Source: Halorussus halophilus
GTDB taxonomy: Archaea; Halobacteriota; Halobacteria; Halobacteriales; Haladaptataceae
DNA: 64,000 nucleotides
Reading direction: 5' to 3'
Assembly (NCBI RefSeq): GCF_008831545.1
Contig: NZ_CP044523.1
Span: 682,001 to 746,000, forward strand
Part shown: positions 4,551 through 21,802 of the stretch, piece by piece
Layout: every line of letters begins with the position of its first letter
Numbering within the stretch: the stretch's first letter is position 1
Notes under the pieces: model-generated
What the model saw: only the letters and a program-made list of their open reading frames with translations
Database searches by the model: none
What the model was told of the DNA's origin: nothing
Translations under genes and position numbers: made by a program

Positions 4551-4724
4551 TCAGTTACACTCTCCGTCGATACTCTTAGTGTCTATTTCCTCCGAAATCG
4601 AAGTAAAACAGTTTTCACATAGTATTGCTCCCTTCGATTCATCTTCTGTTTGCAACTTCATTATTCCATATGGTTTTCCATCGAAATAACAGACGCATCG
4701 ATCACAGGAAAATGCTTCACCCAT
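4551..4724 (-). CDS. Small zinc-finger protein (57 aa)
   Basis: ATG at 4724, stop at 4551. The 57-residue protein has two CxxC pairs (CDRC at 7-10 and CENC at 36-39) around a short beta-type segment (YGIMKLQ), the layout of a treble-clef or zinc-ribbon finger. It starts 4 nt after the stop of the DUF2085-like gene and is very probably the last gene of a four-gene operon (5768 to 4551). All four products are Cys-rich. No known family. Confidence 0.65.
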   Translation of the reverse strand: MGEAFSCDRCVCYFDGKPYGIMKLQTEDESKGAILCENCFTSISEEIDTKSIDGECN

Positions 4725-4728
4725 ATTT

Positions 4729-5103
4729 TCACCCCTTTATGTAAAATACGCTGTGTATGAGTGTAGGCACTCCGACGCCCATTAGTATTCCAGTGATTGT
4801 TCTTAGCCGATTATTGCTTTCTCGGTTGCCGAACATCTGAGTGACCCCGTCAAGAGCCCCAGGGATAATGAGAACTATACCAAATAGTATTCCTATTACT
4901 TGGTCAGGAGGCCACCAAATTCCTAATTGGAGGATGAGAAGGGCAAAAAAGCCCGACAGGTATAATGGCGTACACCTTGCACAGAGCCCGAAATATCGGC
5001 CATTATGACAGTACGAACGATCGGGACGAGAATGACAGAGTGGGTACTTTCGAAAAACCTGCGATGATCGGAATATTTTCCCTATGACCTTCTTAATTGC
5101 CAT
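4729..5103 (-). CDS. DUF2085-like membrane protein
   Basis: A 124-residue protein with the DUF2085 signature: PLCHSRPDRS, then GLCARCTPLYLSG, i.e. a conserved Cys-His motif, an Arg/Ser pair and CxRC at the membrane face, followed by about three hydrophobic helices (50-70, 74-95, 103-122). Families with this motif are small membrane proteins of unknown function, presumed to bind metal. Its start overlaps the stop of the upstream gene by 11 nt, consistent with co-transcription and translational coupling. The next gene follows after 4 nt. Confidence 0.75.
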   Translation of the reverse strand: MAIKKVIGKIFRSSQVFRKYPLCHSRPDRSYCHNGRYFGLCARCTPLYLSGFFALLILQLGIWWPPDQVIGILFGIVLIIPGALDGVTQMFGNRESNNRLRTITGILMGVGVPTLIHSVFYIKG

Positions 5104-5530
5104 CAGTTAGCTCTTCTCCACAGTCGTGGCAGTAGTTATTATCCACGGAGTTTTGCCAGCCACAGTTACCGCAAACACGTTTAGGGCCTTTTTTCGAATT
5201 CTTTCCTCCAATAGAGACTTGTTGCTGTTGCTGAGATCCAGCTCCGTCACTATCGTCACTTATTGACCTTCGAAACGCAACTCCTGTTTCTGCGACAACC
5301 ATCCAAGTGACGATGACACCCACTGCTGCGATTGTCACTCCCGATGATCCTGCTGTTTCAGGCGAAGATAATGCGCCGACAATAAATCCTAAAAATCCTA
5401 CGATAACTCCCGCTGCCAATTTTTGGTTATCATCGAGCTTATGGTGTAATGCTGGACCATTCTCGTTAGTATCTTCTCCGTTCTGTATTCTCTCAAGTTC
5501 TTTCTCGAAGCTATTTTTGTTGCCTGCCAT
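5093..5530 (-). CDS. Two-helix membrane protein with poly-Q and zinc ribbon
   Basis: I use the ATG at 5530 (MAGNKNSFEK), 1 nt after the upstream stop; a longer frame exists upstream but overlaps the previous gene out of frame. The 145-residue product has an acidic N-terminus, two hydrophobic segments (about 37-55 and 64-82), a GSQQQQQ run near residue 100 and a C-terminal zinc ribbon (CGNCGWQ...CHDCGEE). The C-terminal half repeats the plan of the upstream 78-residue protein, so the two look like relatives. Function unknown; the ribbon should be cytoplasmic. Confidence 0.75.
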   Translation of the reverse strand: MAGNKNSFEKELERIQNGEDTNENGPALHHKLDDNQKLAAGVIVGFLGFIVGALSSPETAGSSGVTIAAVGVIVTWMVVAETGVAFRRSISDDSDGAGSQQQQQVSIGGKNSKKGPKRVCGNCGWQNSVDNNYCHDCGEELTDGN

Positions 5531-5531
5531 T

Positions 5532-5768
5532 TCACTCACTCTCACTACCGAACGAGAAACCACAGTCACCACAGTATGTTGCTTCGCGTGGATTCTCCAT
5601 CCCACAGTCTGGGCAGACGCGCTTTGGCTCGTCTTCCGTGCTCCCTTCATCAACTACGATTTGTTGTTGCTGTTGTTGTTGTTGAGATCCAGAACAACAA
5701 CATCCGATTGTCCCAATTGCTAAAAGAGAAATTAGTGTCAAAGCCGGCTCGATTACGATGGAGCTCAC
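5532..5768 (-). CDS. Small poly-Q zinc-ribbon protein
   Basis: First gene of the four-gene minus-strand operon. The 78-residue product starts with a hydrophobic segment (about 8-26) ending in GCCCSGSQQQQQQQQ. The Cys cluster after a hydrophobic stretch resembles a lipobox but is not a clean one. A run of eight Gln and an acidic linker lead to a C-terminal zinc ribbon (CPDCGMENP...CGDCGFSF). It shares the GSQ-run plus ribbon plan with the next gene. The poly-Q is encoded by mostly CAA codons, making a near-repetitive tract at about 5660-5690 that could vary in length. Confidence 0.7.
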   Translation of the reverse strand: MSSIVIEPALTLISLLAIGTIGCCCSGSQQQQQQQQIVVDEGSTEDEPKRVCPDCGMENPREATYCGDCGFSFGSESE

Positions 5769-6444: not shown

Positions 6445-6987
6445 TTAGATGATCGCTGCCAGCAGAACGATGAGGACTCCCAGTACGACAATCAACCAGA
6501 GGAAGTTGCCGAACCAGCCGAAAATCAATAGCGATCCGGACACAGCAGGATTCTCTTGTGCGTCTTTTGGCAGGTATTTTTGCATCGTCGAGCCACGCAT
6601 CTTGTAGATAGACTCCGGCATTGCGACGAGGAAGAAGAAGAACGGGAAGATGAGGACACCGATGACCCCGAGGACGGCACCGAGATAGAACATGTTCTGG
6701 CGGTTAAGGTTGGTCGAGTTCGTCTGGTCAGTCGATTGGGTGCCAGCGGTTGAAGTGCTCTCTCCCACTTTTTGATACTGCATCGAACCACAGTTCTCAC
6801 AGGGTGGGTTATTTCGAGGGTGCCTCGACCCGCAGTCGACACACTCCCACTGGACGTGGGTAACCGCCTCGATTCGCTGGGGTGACTGTGACTCGTCGAG
6901 ATCCGCGAACTTGTCGTGACCACACTCTCGGCATGGGGGATGGTTCGCCTCGTGCTCGGCAGTGCAACTGGCACAAATCCAAGTCAT
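6445..6987 (-). CDS. Double zinc-ribbon membrane protein
   Basis: A 180-residue protein with two consecutive zinc ribbons: C5xxC8...C19xxC22, and a second near residues 49-71 (WECVDCGS...PCENCGSM), each with the spacer Pro-Pro-Cys. A Ser/Thr-rich linker follows, then two membrane regions (about 98-122 and 152-180). It is likely an inner-face zinc-binding membrane protein. Together with the genes at 4551-5768 it makes four to five metal-binding membrane proteins within 2.5 kb, a striking concentration. Function unknown. Confidence 0.75.
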   Translation of the reverse strand: MTWICASCTAEHEANHPPCRECGHDKFADLDESQSPQRIEAVTHVQWECVDCGSRHPRNNPPCENCGSMQYQKVGESTSTAGTQSTDQTNSTNLNRQNMFYLGAVLGVIGVLIFPFFFFLVAMPESIYKMRGSTMQKYLPKDAQENPAVSGSLLIFGWFGNFLWLIVVLGVLIVLLAAII

Positions 6988-7348: not shown

Positions 7349-8311
7349 ATGGTTGATTACAACGGACTACTGCTTTTTAACCAAATTCATCAGCTATCAT
7401 CTCCTATAGAACTCGACAGTTTTGGCAATAAGCTCACAATGGAGATTAAGGATGAGGTTGAGCCAACACAAAAGCAGGAGTCGATAGAGGAGATTTTTCT
7501 CCCCGCTCGGACTCTGGATGAGCCTTTACCGAAGTATTTCTTCCGTTTCCTGGATGAGGAGTGCAGATGGTTTAGATATACAGTGAGAGAGCTCAAAGCG
7601 GAAGAGGGAATTAACACTGATGGAGATTTGTCTACATTTTACAAACCGGAAGAACGCACTTGTGATATATTTCTAACATCGGGGGGATATGTGTTTTTCA
7701 GAGGGGCAAAATCAGAAATACAGGGGTTTGTCGACCGCTTTTATTCACGACTCAGGGATATAGGAATTAACCGCCACCACAAGGAAATAAGATTCGATTC
7801 AGATTACTTACTTTGGATTTTCTATCACTATCGACTCAACAAATCTCTTCCTACTGAACTAGGAGTGGACTTACTAACGGATGCCAAAGTTGTCGGCGAT
7901 CGAGACAGGGTTGGTAGTTTTAATCGTGTCTCTGGTTCAACCGATGTCGGTAAGTCGGCACCCGTTCTGACAGGAATTCTGAATGGAAAAAATATCTCAA
8001 TGTTAGGAGGAGTTTTCACTTTAGACGGGATAAAAATAACTGCAGATATCGAGGTGGACGGCCGAATCCATATAAAGACAGATAATACCATCAACCAGCT
8101 TAATCAAGAGGGCCGTATTGTCACTTCAGTAGTTTTCCTACAGGGATTATGCAAACTTCGGGAACATTGGCAAAAGTTGGAGAATTCTAAACGTTATCCA
8201 CCCATAGAATTCTTCGAAGAAATATCTGATAATTTGGAGAACGCGGGGGTAGAGGTCCAGATTGCTATAGAGCCAGTTATCGAAGAATATCGGAAAAAAC
8301 GGGAGAGATAG
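7349..8311 (+). CDS. Uncharacterised protein, paralogue of 10833-11861
   Basis: A 320-residue protein of no family I know. Its C-terminal 170 residues align clearly with the gene at 10833-11861. Shared blocks include DYLLWIF/DFLLWVF, LLTDAKV/MLTDAEI, STDVGKSAPVL/STDITKSAPVL, DGRIHIK/DGRVHIK, YPPIEFF/YPPLEFF and GVEVQ/GVEVT. The N-terminal halves are more divergent. It is followed after 4 nt by the AlbA_2 gene, so the two form an operon. Codons are strongly A/T-biased compared with the host. It looks soluble, with no signal or membrane segment. Confidence 0.75.
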   Translation: MVDYNGLLLFNQIHQLSSPIELDSFGNKLTMEIKDEVEPTQKQESIEEIFLPARTLDEPLPKYFFRFLDEECRWFRYTVRELKAEEGINTDGDLSTFYKPEERTCDIFLTSGGYVFFRGAKSEIQGFVDRFYSRLRDIGINRHHKEIRFDSDYLLWIFYHYRLNKSLPTELGVDLLTDAKVVGDRDRVGSFNRVSGSTDVGKSAPVLTGILNGKNISMLGGVFTLDGIKITADIEVDGRIHIKTDNTINQLNQEGRIVTSVVFLQGLCKLREHWQKLENSKRYPPIEFFEEISDNLENAGVEVQIAIEPVIEEYRKKRER

Positions 8312-8315
8312 AATA

Positions 8316-8783
8316 ATGGTAGAGATATACGAACAAGAGGAAGCCTCTATCGGGGTAGCCGAAATCAAATTAGCAAAAGAAGCAGGTAGAGGTGAGAAAA
8401 CAGAATTTTATGCAGCCATACCTGAAGAGGATGAAGATCTTGCAGTAACGGCATGCAGTCTAGCAAACAATGGTGGTGGTCAAATACTTATAGGGGTTGA
8501 TAAAACTGGGAAAGTAATTGGACTGGAAAGTGGGGATGTTGAGGATGACGTAAAAGATATCCTTGACCGGGATATTGAAAGGAAACTGGATCGGACGTAT
8601 GTCACATCTAGTGTGGAATTGGAAAAGGAAACAATTTTAGCAATTGTGGTCAGTGACTTCAAAAGATATCCTCTAACAGCAGATGGTAGATTTTATCTTC
8701 GTCATCAAGATGAAGACGTACTACTCTCCCCTGACGAAGTTTGCGATCTTATGAGACAGAGCCCAGTTTTGAAAGAGAAGTAA
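8316..8783 (+). CDS. AlbA_2 (Schlafen-type) domain protein
   Basis: A 155-residue protein made essentially of one AlbA_2 domain. After an N-terminal strand it shows E-F-Y-A-A-I-P, then ACSLANNGGGQILIGVDKTG (about 48-67) with KVIGLESG, the hallmark of this family, then ILAIVVSDFKRYPL and GRFYLRHQ. AlbA_2 domains bind nucleic acid and occur in transcription regulators and Schlafen-like RNases. Here the domain stands alone without helicase or HTH. Coupled to the preceding gene (4-nt gap), so it may be the nucleic-acid-binding or effector partner of that unknown protein (inference). Confidence 0.85.
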   Translation: MVEIYEQEEASIGVAEIKLAKEAGRGEKTEFYAAIPEEDEDLAVTACSLANNGGGQILIGVDKTGKVIGLESGDVEDDVKDILDRDIERKLDRTYVTSSVELEKETILAIVVSDFKRYPLTADGRFYLRHQDEDVLLSPDEVCDLMRQSPVLKEK

Positions 8784-10832: not shown

Positions 10833-11861
10833 TTACTCCTCAAACTCACTGAGCCCTGACTGGTATTCGTTGTAGTCTTTTGGGCTTCCCTTTTGTCGAT
10901 ACTCGTCAACAACATCGTCGATCGAAAATGTAACCTCTACACCTTGGCGTTCGCACTCTTTATAGATGTCTGTGAAAAATTCGAGTGGAGGGTAACGATA
11001 TTCAGAGTCCAGGTTCATCCAGTACTGATAAAGGTCAGTGAATTCTCGGAGGAAAGCTAAAGCGATAGCCATTCGCTCAATATCTGGTGAGCCCTGGATA
11101 GCGTGGTCAGCTTTGATGTGTACTCGACCATCCGTAGCGATTCGAACTCGCACGAATCTGCCAGCCAACCCAAATACGCCCTCTAGAGCTACAAGCCCTT
11201 TCTGACTTAGTACACCAATCAAGACAGGTGCCGATTTTGTAATATCTGTTGAATCATCGACCTTACTATGTTGGCCAAACAGATCAGGTTCATTACCACG
11301 GATTTCAGCGTCAGTAAGCATGTTCACCGAAAGATTCCCTGGCAGGTCTTCGTTATTTTTCTCTTTTGAGAACACCCAAAGTAAGAAGTCCGGATTAAAT
11401 TCGAAATCTCGAAGAGAAAGATAGTCTTCAAGTGTCTCTGAGAGCAGTTGGCGCGCCGTCTCGGCTTTTGATTTGTCCGACTTTATAAATAGATAGTCCG
11501 GTGATGCCCAATAACCGTCGAACGTCGAATAACCACGAAGGGTCGGATGTGTGTCCGTTACACCATCAACCTCCGTATCTCGGTATTCCCACTTTTCCTC
11601 CTTATACCGAAATGCATGAATTTCTCCTAGGAGTTCCTCTATCCGTCGGTCAATCGCAGGTTCATCAGCAATATAATCAGCAAATGGTAACGTCTGGTAG
11701 CCACGTCCGGGTTGCCCTATTGATCCATTCTTGTAGTCGACCAGTTCTTCCTCAATGACATGGTCAAAGTCAAAATTTGCATCAAGAATATCAGTCATAT
11801 GAAGACCATTGAATACAAGTTGTCCCTCATACGAGAAGGCCTCTATTTGTTCAAGACTCAT
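10833..11861 (-). CDS. Uncharacterised protein, paralogue of 7349-8311
   Basis: I use the ATG at 11861 (MSLEQIEAFSYEGQLVFNG); a longer frame upstream overlaps non-coding text. The product is 342 residues. The C-terminal half matches the 7349 protein in the same order of motifs (FLLWVF, MLTDAEI, STDITKSAPVL, DGRVHIKADHAIQ, YPPLEFF, GVEVTFSIDDVVDEYRQK). It has higher-GC, more host-like codons than its paralogue, so the two copies probably have different histories. It heads a minus-strand set with 10137-10772 and 9495-10133. Function unknown. Confidence 0.75.
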   Translation of the reverse strand: MSLEQIEAFSYEGQLVFNGLHMTDILDANFDFDHVIEEELVDYKNGSIGQPGRGYQTLPFADYIADEPAIDRRIEELLGEIHAFRYKEEKWEYRDTEVDGVTDTHPTLRGYSTFDGYWASPDYLFIKSDKSKAETARQLLSETLEDYLSLRDFEFNPDFLLWVFSKEKNNEDLPGNLSVNMLTDAEIRGNEPDLFGQHSKVDDSTDITKSAPVLIGVLSQKGLVALEGVFGLAGRFVRVRIATDGRVHIKADHAIQGSPDIERMAIALAFLREFTDLYQYWMNLDSEYRYPPLEFFTDIYKECERQGVEVTFSIDDVVDEYRQKGSPKDYNEYQSGLSEFEE

Positions 11862-13956: not shown

Positions 13957-14634
13957 ATGACGATAAAAGCCCACCAATTGGCGCATTCCCCCGACGATAC
14001 AGTCTGCGAACTAGTGATTGATCCCGCAGGAGCTGGAAATCCCGAAGCAGCTGTCGACGCAGATGATGAGCACTACAGATATTCCGACATCACGCCAGAC
14101 TGGGTCGACCAGGAGCCGACGGTGACGTCCTTCCGGACCAACGAGGTTCGTGAGACCGGATATTCATATCAAAGAAAAGAGAAGTTCGAGAGATTTTGGC
14201 GACTCGATAACGGACTCGATATTGATCCGACAAACCCAAAGCTCGGCGTGGATGCTGGGTACTACAGTGACAAGTATGCGACTACGGGAGAGAGTGATGA
14301 CCCTTTAGCTCGCGAAAACCACCGCAGAGCAGATGCTATCTGCCAGTCATTAGAACTACCGAGCGAGGTGTGCAACAGAGTCTTCAATCTCGTGCAAAAC
14401 ACCGATAAGAAATGTTTCAATCGACATGGCGGTATTGATGCGGGAATCTTGGGATTCAGTGTCCTGGCTCTCTGTGAGTATTTCGGATTTTCACAGTTAG
14501 ACGAAATCCGAAATACAGAGTACTGGTCTGACGTCGAAGAGACTGCTGACGAGCTCGGAGTTCGAGGCACGAGTGGACGTCAATTCCGAAATCTGATCGA
14601 CTATATTGATGAGAGATTCTGGGAGGGGAGATAA
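13957..14634 (+). CDS. Conserved partner of the primase-like gene
   Basis: A 225-residue protein. The N-terminal half is acidic and loop-rich. The C-terminal half (about 115-222) is all-helical: ADAICQSLELPSEVCNRVFNL, then GIDAGILGFSVLALCEYFGF, then LIDYIDERFW. That layout recalls one cyclin-type repeat as in TFB-like proteins, but I see no zinc ribbon and do not assign it. Its stop overlaps the ATG of the primase-like gene by one base (TAATG), showing tight coupling. A role in replication initiation or its control is inferred from this coupling. Confidence 0.65.
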   Translation: MTIKAHQLAHSPDDTVCELVIDPAGAGNPEAAVDADDEHYRYSDITPDWVDQEPTVTSFRTNEVRETGYSYQRKEKFERFWRLDNGLDIDPTNPKLGVDAGYYSDKYATTGESDDPLARENHRRADAICQSLELPSEVCNRVFNLVQNTDKKCFNRHGGIDAGILGFSVLALCEYFGFSQLDEIRNTEYWSDVEETADELGVRGTSGRQFRNLIDYIDERFWEGR

Positions 14635-15821
14635 TGTCGGACTCGAATAATTTCCACGGTGGGGAGCTACGGCCGGATTATAAAGACGATATCCCTTCCG
14701 ACATCAGAGATAGGGAGCAGTGGCTCGTGGCCAAGATCGACAAAAACGGGAAGAAACCTCCCTTGAAACCCACGAACCCGACTTCGATTGTTGACGGGCT
14801 CACGTTCGAAGAAGCGATACAGCTCGCTAACGAACCACAAACAAACACCCAAATATCGAATCGACTACGGTCAAATGAACCGACCGTTGTCGGGTTTATG
14901 ATGTCCTCTAGGGACCCATTCGCATTCATTGACTGGGATGACGTACGCGACCCCCAGATTGGTGATATGAGTATTCCGGATCCGATTCTTACTGCGGTGT
15001 CTAGTCTCGGTTCATATACCGAGATATCACCATCCGGTACAGGGATGAAAACATTCGTTCATATGGATGACTCGCTTCGAGAACTCCTAGCCGACTACGG
15101 GAACCGGATCAATCTCGACCTGAAGACAGTCGGGGATCTTGACGCGATGCCTCACTTAGAAATCTACTCTGAGAAACACTATACGACCGTAACAGCGAAC
15201 ATTTTCACTGATCCGGACACCAATCAGCGGTTCGACCGGATTGACCACGGATGTTCGGATCTCGGCCAGTTTATCGAAACTAATTCTGCAGACTCTGGTC
15301 TCTCCAAAGGGAGTGATTACGATCACACCGAGAATTGCAGAGAGTCAGAGAGTGAAACCACCGTTGACAACCGAGAGAGTGAGAAGGCCGAAAAAGGCCT
15401 TAGTTTGACTAGCATTGGTAAGAGATCGGCCCATCGCTGTCGGTATTCCAGTGACGATAAGAACAAGGAATGGATTCCAGGCGACTGGATTGAACTAAAC
15501 GGTAAGCCCACTGTCGAACAAATACGGGCGACCGGCTATGCCCTTGAAGGGGACTTTCGCGCGCTGTGGGAGGGGAACGTTTCGGGGTATCCGACTACCA
15601 GCGAGGCCGATAACGCGTTAGTTAGCAGACTCTGGTATTATGCTGGTGACCCGAGTCTAGTTGATCGCTCGTTTCGTCAGTCTCAGTTATACGGTATTCG
15701 TGTTCGTCACGGAGAGCGTGACACCCCTAAGTGGGACCGGTCCTCGTACAGGGAAGCGACAATAAATTCTACCCAGGATAACGACAGATACGATGGCCGA
15801 TACCTGGATCCACACGCGTAG
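14634..15821 (+). CDS. Primase-polymerase-like replication protein
   Basis: A 395-residue protein with features of plasmid/virus archaeo-eukaryotic primases (NrS-1 polymerase-like). WLVAKIDKNGKKPPLKP lies near 30; the acidic pair is in FAFIDWDDV (Asp100, Asp102); SYTEISPSGTGMKTFVH lies at 127-143; HLEIYSEKHYTTVTA at 174-188 supplies the His and the family's strand motif. A charged linker (205-265) leads to a C-terminal helical domain (ADNALVSRLWYYAGDPSLVDRSF) like the helix-bundle domain of that family. No helicase motifs are present, so unwinding would need another protein. This is the likely replication gene of the element. Confidence 0.8.
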   Translation: MSDSNNFHGGELRPDYKDDIPSDIRDREQWLVAKIDKNGKKPPLKPTNPTSIVDGLTFEEAIQLANEPQTNTQISNRLRSNEPTVVGFMMSSRDPFAFIDWDDVRDPQIGDMSIPDPILTAVSSLGSYTEISPSGTGMKTFVHMDDSLRELLADYGNRINLDLKTVGDLDAMPHLEIYSEKHYTTVTANIFTDPDTNQRFDRIDHGCSDLGQFIETNSADSGLSKGSDYDHTENCRESESETTVDNRESEKAEKGLSLTSIGKRSAHRCRYSSDDKNKEWIPGDWIELNGKPTVEQIRATGYALEGDFRALWEGNVSGYPTTSEADNALVSRLWYYAGDPSLVDRSFRQSQLYGIRVRHGERDTPKWDRSSYREATINSTQDNDRYDGRYLDPHA

Positions 15822-20482: not shown

Positions 20483-21583
20483 TTATCCCATACGATCGAG
20501 AGCTGAACGTCGATCTTCGACGGGTACCTGATCGTACTTTATCGTGGTTTGAACACTCTTGTGACGGAGCTGTGTTTTCGCTGCTGCCAGGTCTTCTTCT
20601 CGCGTCATGTACGTCCCGACCGAGTGACGGATCGCATACCAGCTCATTCGGCGATTCTCGGTGTCTATTCCGGCCTGATCGCACAACCGCAGTAACAAAC
20701 GCTGGAGTGACTGCGACCCGTACGGATTTCCTTCCCGAGTGAGCCACAGCTTGTCCGTGTCATCGTATCTATCGTAATTGTCTCTCTCCTGGAGCCAGCG
20801 CTCGAGAGCGTCGGCCGTACGCTCTGAGATGCTCACGAGCCAGTTGTCGTAGCTCTTTACTGAATCCGATGCGGGGATTCGAAGCACTCGGTTGGAGATA
20901 TCGACCCACGAGACGGACGCCTCACCGACTTCGGCGGGACGTAGACCGGCATCGAGCGACACCCAGACCATCGAAGTGTACTTCCATCCGTTCACCTGCT
21001 TCCAATCGTCGATCGAAACTTCCTCCAACGGTTTTCTCAGTCGCTGTGAGACGTACTTCTTCCAGTGTTCTCGCTCGTCGGGGGTGAGGCTGTAGTAGTC
21101 CGGAATCGATCCATATTCGAGTGCAGCCTGTCGAATCTGTTTTCGCTCATCGAGACTAAGGAAGTCCGGTGGCTGTTCGCGCGCGTTGGATGAGAACACT
21201 AGTTCTGGTTCCCAGGGCTCCTCGTTGAGCTCGTGGTGACGCCACTTGAAGTACCGATTCAGCGAGTCCTGTGTATTGGCTTTGTGTGACCCGCTATATT
21301 CACCACGCGCGAGGTACTTCATATACTCGTCCGCATGGTCGTGGGTCAGGTGGATGGTATAACCATCCTCAAGTTCCCAGACAAACCGGTCGAACTTCCC
21401 GCACCGGTACGCGGTCCGGTACACTGTGTCTTCGGTGTAACCCTCAGCTGCCCCTGGGTCTTTGCCGAATGTCGACAACCATTCGATGAACTTCCGGCGT
21501 TGGTTCGCATAGTCGACGCGCTGTTTTTCGTTTAGGTACTGCTCGGATTCTTCCGCGATAAGCGGAGCGTCGATATCTACCAT
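20483..21583 (-). CDS. Tyrosine recombinase / integrase
   Basis: ATG at 21583 (MVDIDAPLIAEESEQYL) gives 366 residues; the longer frame starts inside the tRNA and is rejected. N-terminal SAM-like DNA-binding helices (about 10-130) precede the catalytic domain with Arg215 (GLRPAEVGE), Arg319 in WYAIRHSVGTYM, His341 in LRHKSVQTT and the nucleophile Tyr350 (IKYDQVP). The first position of the usual HxxR box is Tyr316 instead of His. It lies 164 bp from the attR core and reads away from the tRNA. It must be the enzyme that inserted the element. It resembles the integrases of haloarchaeal plasmids and pleolipoviruses (SNJ2 type); that subgroup is inferred. Confidence 0.9.
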   Translation of the reverse strand: MVDIDAPLIAEESEQYLNEKQRVDYANQRRKFIEWLSTFGKDPGAAEGYTEDTVYRTAYRCGKFDRFVWELEDGYTIHLTHDHADEYMKYLARGEYSGSHKANTQDSLNRYFKWRHHELNEEPWEPELVFSSNAREQPPDFLSLDERKQIRQAALEYGSIPDYYSLTPDEREHWKKYVSQRLRKPLEEVSIDDWKQVNGWKYTSMVWVSLDAGLRPAEVGEASVSWVDISNRVLRIPASDSVKSYDNWLVSISERTADALERWLQERDNYDRYDDTDKLWLTREGNPYGSQSLQRLLLRLCDQAGIDTENRRMSWYAIRHSVGTYMTREEDLAAAKTQLRHKSVQTTIKYDQVPVEDRRSALDRMG

Positions 21584-21746: not shown

Positions 21747-21802
21747 ATGCGAGGGATGGGATTCGAACCCATGGACGTCTACACGAGCGGGTCTTAAGCC
21801 CG
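21747..21802 (-). repeat. attR: repeat copy within intact tRNA-Leu
   Basis: Identical over 56 bp to 1162-1217. Here the tRNA 5' half continues to 21832, so the gene stays functional after insertion. The core therefore starts at the anticodon arm and ends one base past the tRNA 3' end. Confidence 0.95.

Follow-up and report, generated by a model that had tools for sequence, protein, structure and literature searches.

A conserved gene set encoding a DUF2085 protein and two predicted zinc-ribbon membrane proteins in haloarchaeal tRNA-targeting elements

Three small adjoining genes of Halorussus halophilus, here called A, B and C, would form a co-transcribed mobile module whose products work in one membrane complex. 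We infer both the common transcript and the complex, and give this reading a probability of roughly 0.6. The genes lie in a 64,000-nt stretch of DNA, referred to below as the window, and a fourth small gene, D, follows them.

All four genes are on the minus strand. A (5532-5768) starts with GTG and encodes 78 aa with one hydrophobic stretch, a CCC motif, a poly-Q run and a putative C-terminal zinc ribbon. B (5093-5530) starts with ATG and encodes 145 aa with two hydrophobic stretches, poly-Q and a putative C-terminal zinc ribbon; an alternative B ORF with a TTG start extends to 5653 and would overlap A. C (4729-5103) encodes a DUF2085 (PF09858) membrane protein of 124 aa, and D (4551-4724) a protein of 57 aa with two CxxC pairs that is present only in this genome. 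An earlier note, made from the sequence alone, had proposed a four-gene operon with gaps of 1, -11 and 4 nt, Cys pairs in all four products and a DUF2085-like protein among them. The gaps have the same values in our analysis. Two CxxC pairs are present in each of A, B and D, and CH...CxxC in C, which matches the DUF2085 profile with 81.8 bits (cut-off 25) and an E-value of 5e-23 over profile positions 1-87 of 90. The common plan of poly-Q and zinc ribbon claimed for two of the products also holds, with tblastn placing A onto B at 46% over 39 aa (E 8e-11). The operon reading holds up for A, B and C, which are kept together, but D is not conserved, being present in a single one of 391 genomes. 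The window also encodes, about 0.7 kb upstream of A, a further membrane protein (6445-6987, minus strand) that has hydrophobic helices and, N-terminally, two Cys-pair ribbons; this gene is not kept in the other A-B-C loci.

The three genes A, B and C co-occur in 10 of 10 haloarchaeal loci, D not being among them, which is the outcome of a conserved-neighbourhood check that the earlier note had asked for. The C query matched 43 of the 391 genomes of the class. Seven of these matches are close (the source genome and six others at 51-56% identity), one is intermediate (G180, 39%) and 35 are distant (29-41%). The A profile gave E-values below 1e-35 in exactly the seven close-C genomes, the next genome among the 391 being at 4e-6. 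Close A and close C thus fall in the same 7 of 391 genomes, with a chance of about 4e-15 if the two were independent. The ten loci are those of the window and of the six other close genomes, joined by three that a separate collection added; this collection gave six in all, the other three being at the places of G018, G048 and G218. The order A, one or two B, C was observed in 10/10 loci, with a double-length B in Halobellus salinus. The distance from A to B is -11 to about +3 nt in nine of the ten and 45 nt in Halobellus, and that from B to C is -14 to about +10 nt, where the Halorutilus values are approximate and the C start in G280 is uncertain. The GC content of the module is 42-51%, lower than that of the surrounding locus in all ten cases.

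A, B and C are under purifying selection, with dN/dS values of 0.15, 0.23 and 0.11, respectively, for the closest pair (G202 and QS4). We compared the distance matrices of the three proteins over nine loci, leaving out Halorutilus and taking the last B where there are two. The Mantel correlations are 0.78 for A/C, 0.80 for A/B and 0.61 for B/C, values reached in 0, 2 and 6 of 5000 permutations, respectively. This agreement may come partly from a shared history of the hosts or of the elements. The set in Halorutilus salinus seems, from its sequence, to be decaying: B (L043, 9545-9970) has an in-frame TGA stop and the start of A is disturbed.

D had no match outside the source genome in the 391 genomes of the class, no match to profile families and no relative in viral contigs. 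As a gene of this genome only, it falls outside the conserved set, and we rejected it as a module member. D is in the same size class as the one-domain zinc finger micro-proteins known from Haloferax volcanii (PMC6562870 and PMC11241148), which are small and have two C(P)xCG motifs. A and B differ from these micro-proteins in their predicted membrane segments and poly-Q.

On sequence grounds, A-B-C is accessory cargo of haloarchaeal tRNA-targeting integrative elements. The element in the window (1162-21802) is 20.6 kb long and has a GC content of 48.4%, against 61.9% to its right. It is bounded by a 56-bp direct repeat, with the distal copy (the attachment site) at 1162-1217 being 100% identical to the proximal copy at 21747-21802, which lies within a tRNA-Leu (TAA) gene. 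Beside the tRNA gene is a tyrosine recombinase gene on the minus strand (20483-21583, start approximate; PF00589, E 3e-17). The exact tRNA-part repeat at either end, together with the site-specific recombinase, places it among tRNA-integrated elements. It has the tRNA-part direct repeats, the integrase by the tRNA gene and the low GC in common with archaeal tRNA-targeting tyrosine-recombinase elements, and is set apart from them by its A-B-C cargo.

Repeats of tRNA parts also enclose the module at five other loci, namely in G079 (54 bp, 7.2 kb apart), Halobacterium salinarum DSM 3754 (62 bp at 95%, 7.6 kb), Halobellus salinus (39 bp, 11.2 kb), G202 (55 bp, 17.4 kb) and G280 (43 bp, 19.3 kb). 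Hence the ends are defined for six of the ten loci, and A-B-C lies between them every time. A tyrosine recombinase gene is near the module in eight of the ten loci; the distance is under 5 kb in seven, and 14.7 kb for the window. The gene in QS4 is split. No recombinase was seen within 20 kb at the remaining two loci, Halorutilus and Atlit-26R.

C is a DUF2085 protein by its CH...CxxC motif and its profile membership, and the motif is invariant among the relatives of C that we aligned. The predicted structure has three long helices following a CH...CxxC hairpin (mean pLDDT 77.8, low in the first half of the hairpin). Foldseek returned nothing for this model at E 0.001 or better, and among solved structures related to C by sequence there was nothing beyond chance-level rows. 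A likeness to transporters was rejected, as the best VIA-align Z of 8.6 is, by the tool's own account, a level often reached by helical bundles. The CH...CxxC motif and the R-x-S-N-N-x-x-R loop of C, as well as the ribbons of A and B, probably face the cytoplasm according to the positive-inside rule. The branch of C differs from other DUF2085 proteins in being short, mobile and tied to two poly-Q zinc-ribbon proteins rather than to one TM2/ribbon protein.

The plan of A is invariant in a ten-row alignment: one hydrophobic stretch, CC, at least six Q and then the ribbon. All four ribbon cysteines of A and B are conserved. Profile scores lie just below the cut-offs for A (DUF7577, 27.9 bits against 28; Zn_Ribbon_1, 24 against 25), and B scored 21.3 bits against a zinc-ribbon cut-off of 25. 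These ribbons look like ordinary structural zinc ribbons and would hold zinc. Neither A nor B matched the TM2 domain (PF05154) in a profile search up to E 1. The poly-Q of A is encoded by a mixture of CAA and CAG in all nine loci examined. In our judgement the N-terminus of A is not that of a lipoprotein, the basic n-region being absent. The predicted model of B was too poor for use.

Other DUF2085 genes of haloarchaea have a membrane-protein partner of their own. Among 36 haloarchaeal genomes that have a DUF2085 hit outside A-B-C, a profile search located TM2 no more than 1.2 kb from this hit in 35, and each of the 36 genomes has exactly one strong TM2 gene. The exception by this count is G180, where another DUF2085 is near the TM2 gene. 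G180 has an extra DUF2085 in a run of three genes (L037, 8234-9086), the other two of which encode small proteins, the first being PH-domain-like by eye. For the 72 strong TM2 genes, DUF2085 was in the fetched stretch for 35 and for 16 of the 37 others, leaving 21 without it. Zinc-ribbon-like Cys pairs are present in the 31 TM2-side neighbours read, with Pfam confirming TM2 and ribbons for two examples. As in A-B-C, the chromosomal pair sets DUF2085 beside a gene for a ribbon-bearing membrane protein, but its partner has N-terminal ribbons and TM2, whereas the ribbons of A and B are C-terminal and neither protein matches TM2. The profile search found no TM2 gene in the genome of the window.

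Comparable pairs were also observed outside the haloarchaea. In a sample of the phylum, DUF2085 reached E 1e-12 or better in 11 genomes that are not haloarchaeal. In two of them, G528 and G509 of one genus, a 115-aa protein is encoded directly upstream of DUF2085; it has QQQQQQ as well as two hydrophobic stretches, and its C-terminal ribbon can be aligned with those of A and B. No ribbon partner was seen in the other nine within 1.5-kb flanks under a rough filter. On three distinct Bacillota plasmids (four records matched), the gene just upstream of DUF2085 (L086, 3676-3966; L087, 3747-4034; L088, 3714-3977) encodes a small protein that has two hydrophobic stretches and, as its tail, a Cys-rich series of repeated Asp-Cys. 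The TM2/ribbon neighbours, together with these pairs in a few other archaea and on Bacillota plasmids, suggest that DUF2085 works with membrane-anchored Cys-rich partners. A-B-C thus seems, from the sequences compared, to be a mobile version of this partnership. The earlier note recognised neither this general pairing of DUF2085 nor the integrative element around A-B-C.

In the proposed module, C would be the DUF2085 core, a three-helix membrane protein with its conserved hairpin and an Arg/Ser/Asn-rich loop on the cytoplasmic side. A and B, as membrane-anchored zinc-ribbon proteins, would bind C to give one complex, which may be the mobile counterpart of the chromosomal pair of DUF2085 and TM2/zinc-ribbon protein. 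The Cys and zinc domains of the complex would then lie on the cytoplasmic side of the core.

Could the run be a chance series of unrelated small ORFs? Islands are rich in such ORFs and D is unique to one genome, but the order kept in 10/10 loci, the purifying selection and the identical genome distribution of A and C refute this for A-B-C, so that it stands for D only and is highly improbable as an account of the set. It is rather doubtful that A-B-C serves the element itself, through maintenance, transfer or integrase control, and not the host. The integrase gene directly adjoins A-B-C in G079, G202, G280, Halobellus and QS4, as such a role would have it; yet the genes next to A-B-C vary between elements, the set is at the opposite end from the integrase in Halobacterium and 14.7 kb from it in the window, and it is intact in Atlit-26R, where the 20 kb searched showed no recombinase. 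Most DUF2085 pairs are, moreover, ordinary chromosomal genes. The Cys pairs of A, B and C, the invariant CH...CxxC of C and the Cys-rich tails of the Bacillota partners are what a metal- or redox-handling membrane complex, the hypothesis of the earlier note, would display, its Cys sites binding metal for sensing or transfer and not for structure alone. We consider this unlikely, as the ribbons of A and B appear ordinary and structural, and the loci share no neighbouring gene for a transporter, redox enzyme or metal regulator.

For the co-transcribed module with its membrane complex, a protective function for the element or the host is a possible though speculative role, either by excluding competing elements or viruses or in a response to membrane damage. 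We favour such a cargo role because the set is scattered sporadically among elements, some of which also bear restriction systems. A search of selected proteins, made in module-carrying elements only, showed defence genes in three of the six with defined ends: G202 has type I HsdM, HsdS and HsdR, G280 has HmaB/HmaC-like genes, and Halobellus has a restriction enzyme of the AspBHI/Mrr type. It is more doubtful that A-B-C represents an undescribed mobile system of membrane immunity or superinfection exclusion, with a DUF2085 core and zinc-ribbon sensors, as the element-borne branch of a wider unnamed DUF2085/membrane-ribbon machinery that reaches beyond haloarchaea into other archaea and onto Bacillota plasmids.

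We also looked for A-D among known defence and viral families. The PADLOC-DB profiles contain no family for B, C or D and gave a ribbon-level match only for A (E 0.03), so that no known defence family was found for the four. PHROGs likewise gave no family for B, C or D and weak ribbon-region matches only for A, and C had no match in phages. A viral origin was set aside, as neither C nor a B gene has a relative in the viral contigs and the three viral-contig hits with the A profile cover its ribbon part only. The G202 element carries a bacterial PH-domain gene near A-B-C (L084, 3354-3863).

No function is known for the widespread membrane families DUF2085 and TM2, as passages of PMC3861447 and PMC3581485 also state for TM2. 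A table of PMC6997564 lists a DUF2085 gene among those induced in a myxobacterium, and the archaeal dark-matter survey PMC4158269, in the passages available, treats membrane modules in islands in general terms only. No title or abstract opening in the papers searched concerns the A-B-C module, which is hence undescribed there though not necessarily in all print. This agrees with the earlier note, which had found no known role for the set, and a description of the chromosomal pair did not appear in these papers either. The near-obligate genetic partnership (35/36 genomes) provides a first handle on the partners of DUF2085, and the compact mobile version carried by Halobacterium salinarum DSM 3754 makes it open to experiment.

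Several other genes of the elements were observed. A primase-like gene in the window (14634-15821, plus strand; NrS-1 polymerase HBD; PHROGs DNA primase, E 2e-23) is probably, by these matches, the replication gene of the element. The element proteins encoded at 7349-8311 (plus strand) and 10833-11834 (minus strand) are alike by eye and matched no Pfam family, and a Schlafen AlbA_2 gene (8316-8783) follows the former. Two small genes lie ahead of A in the Halobacterium and Halobellus elements (L041, 8124-8737; L042, 8114-8820), encoding a Cys-rich protein that has no Pfam match and is SWIM-like by eye, and an acidic ORF of 38-42 aa.
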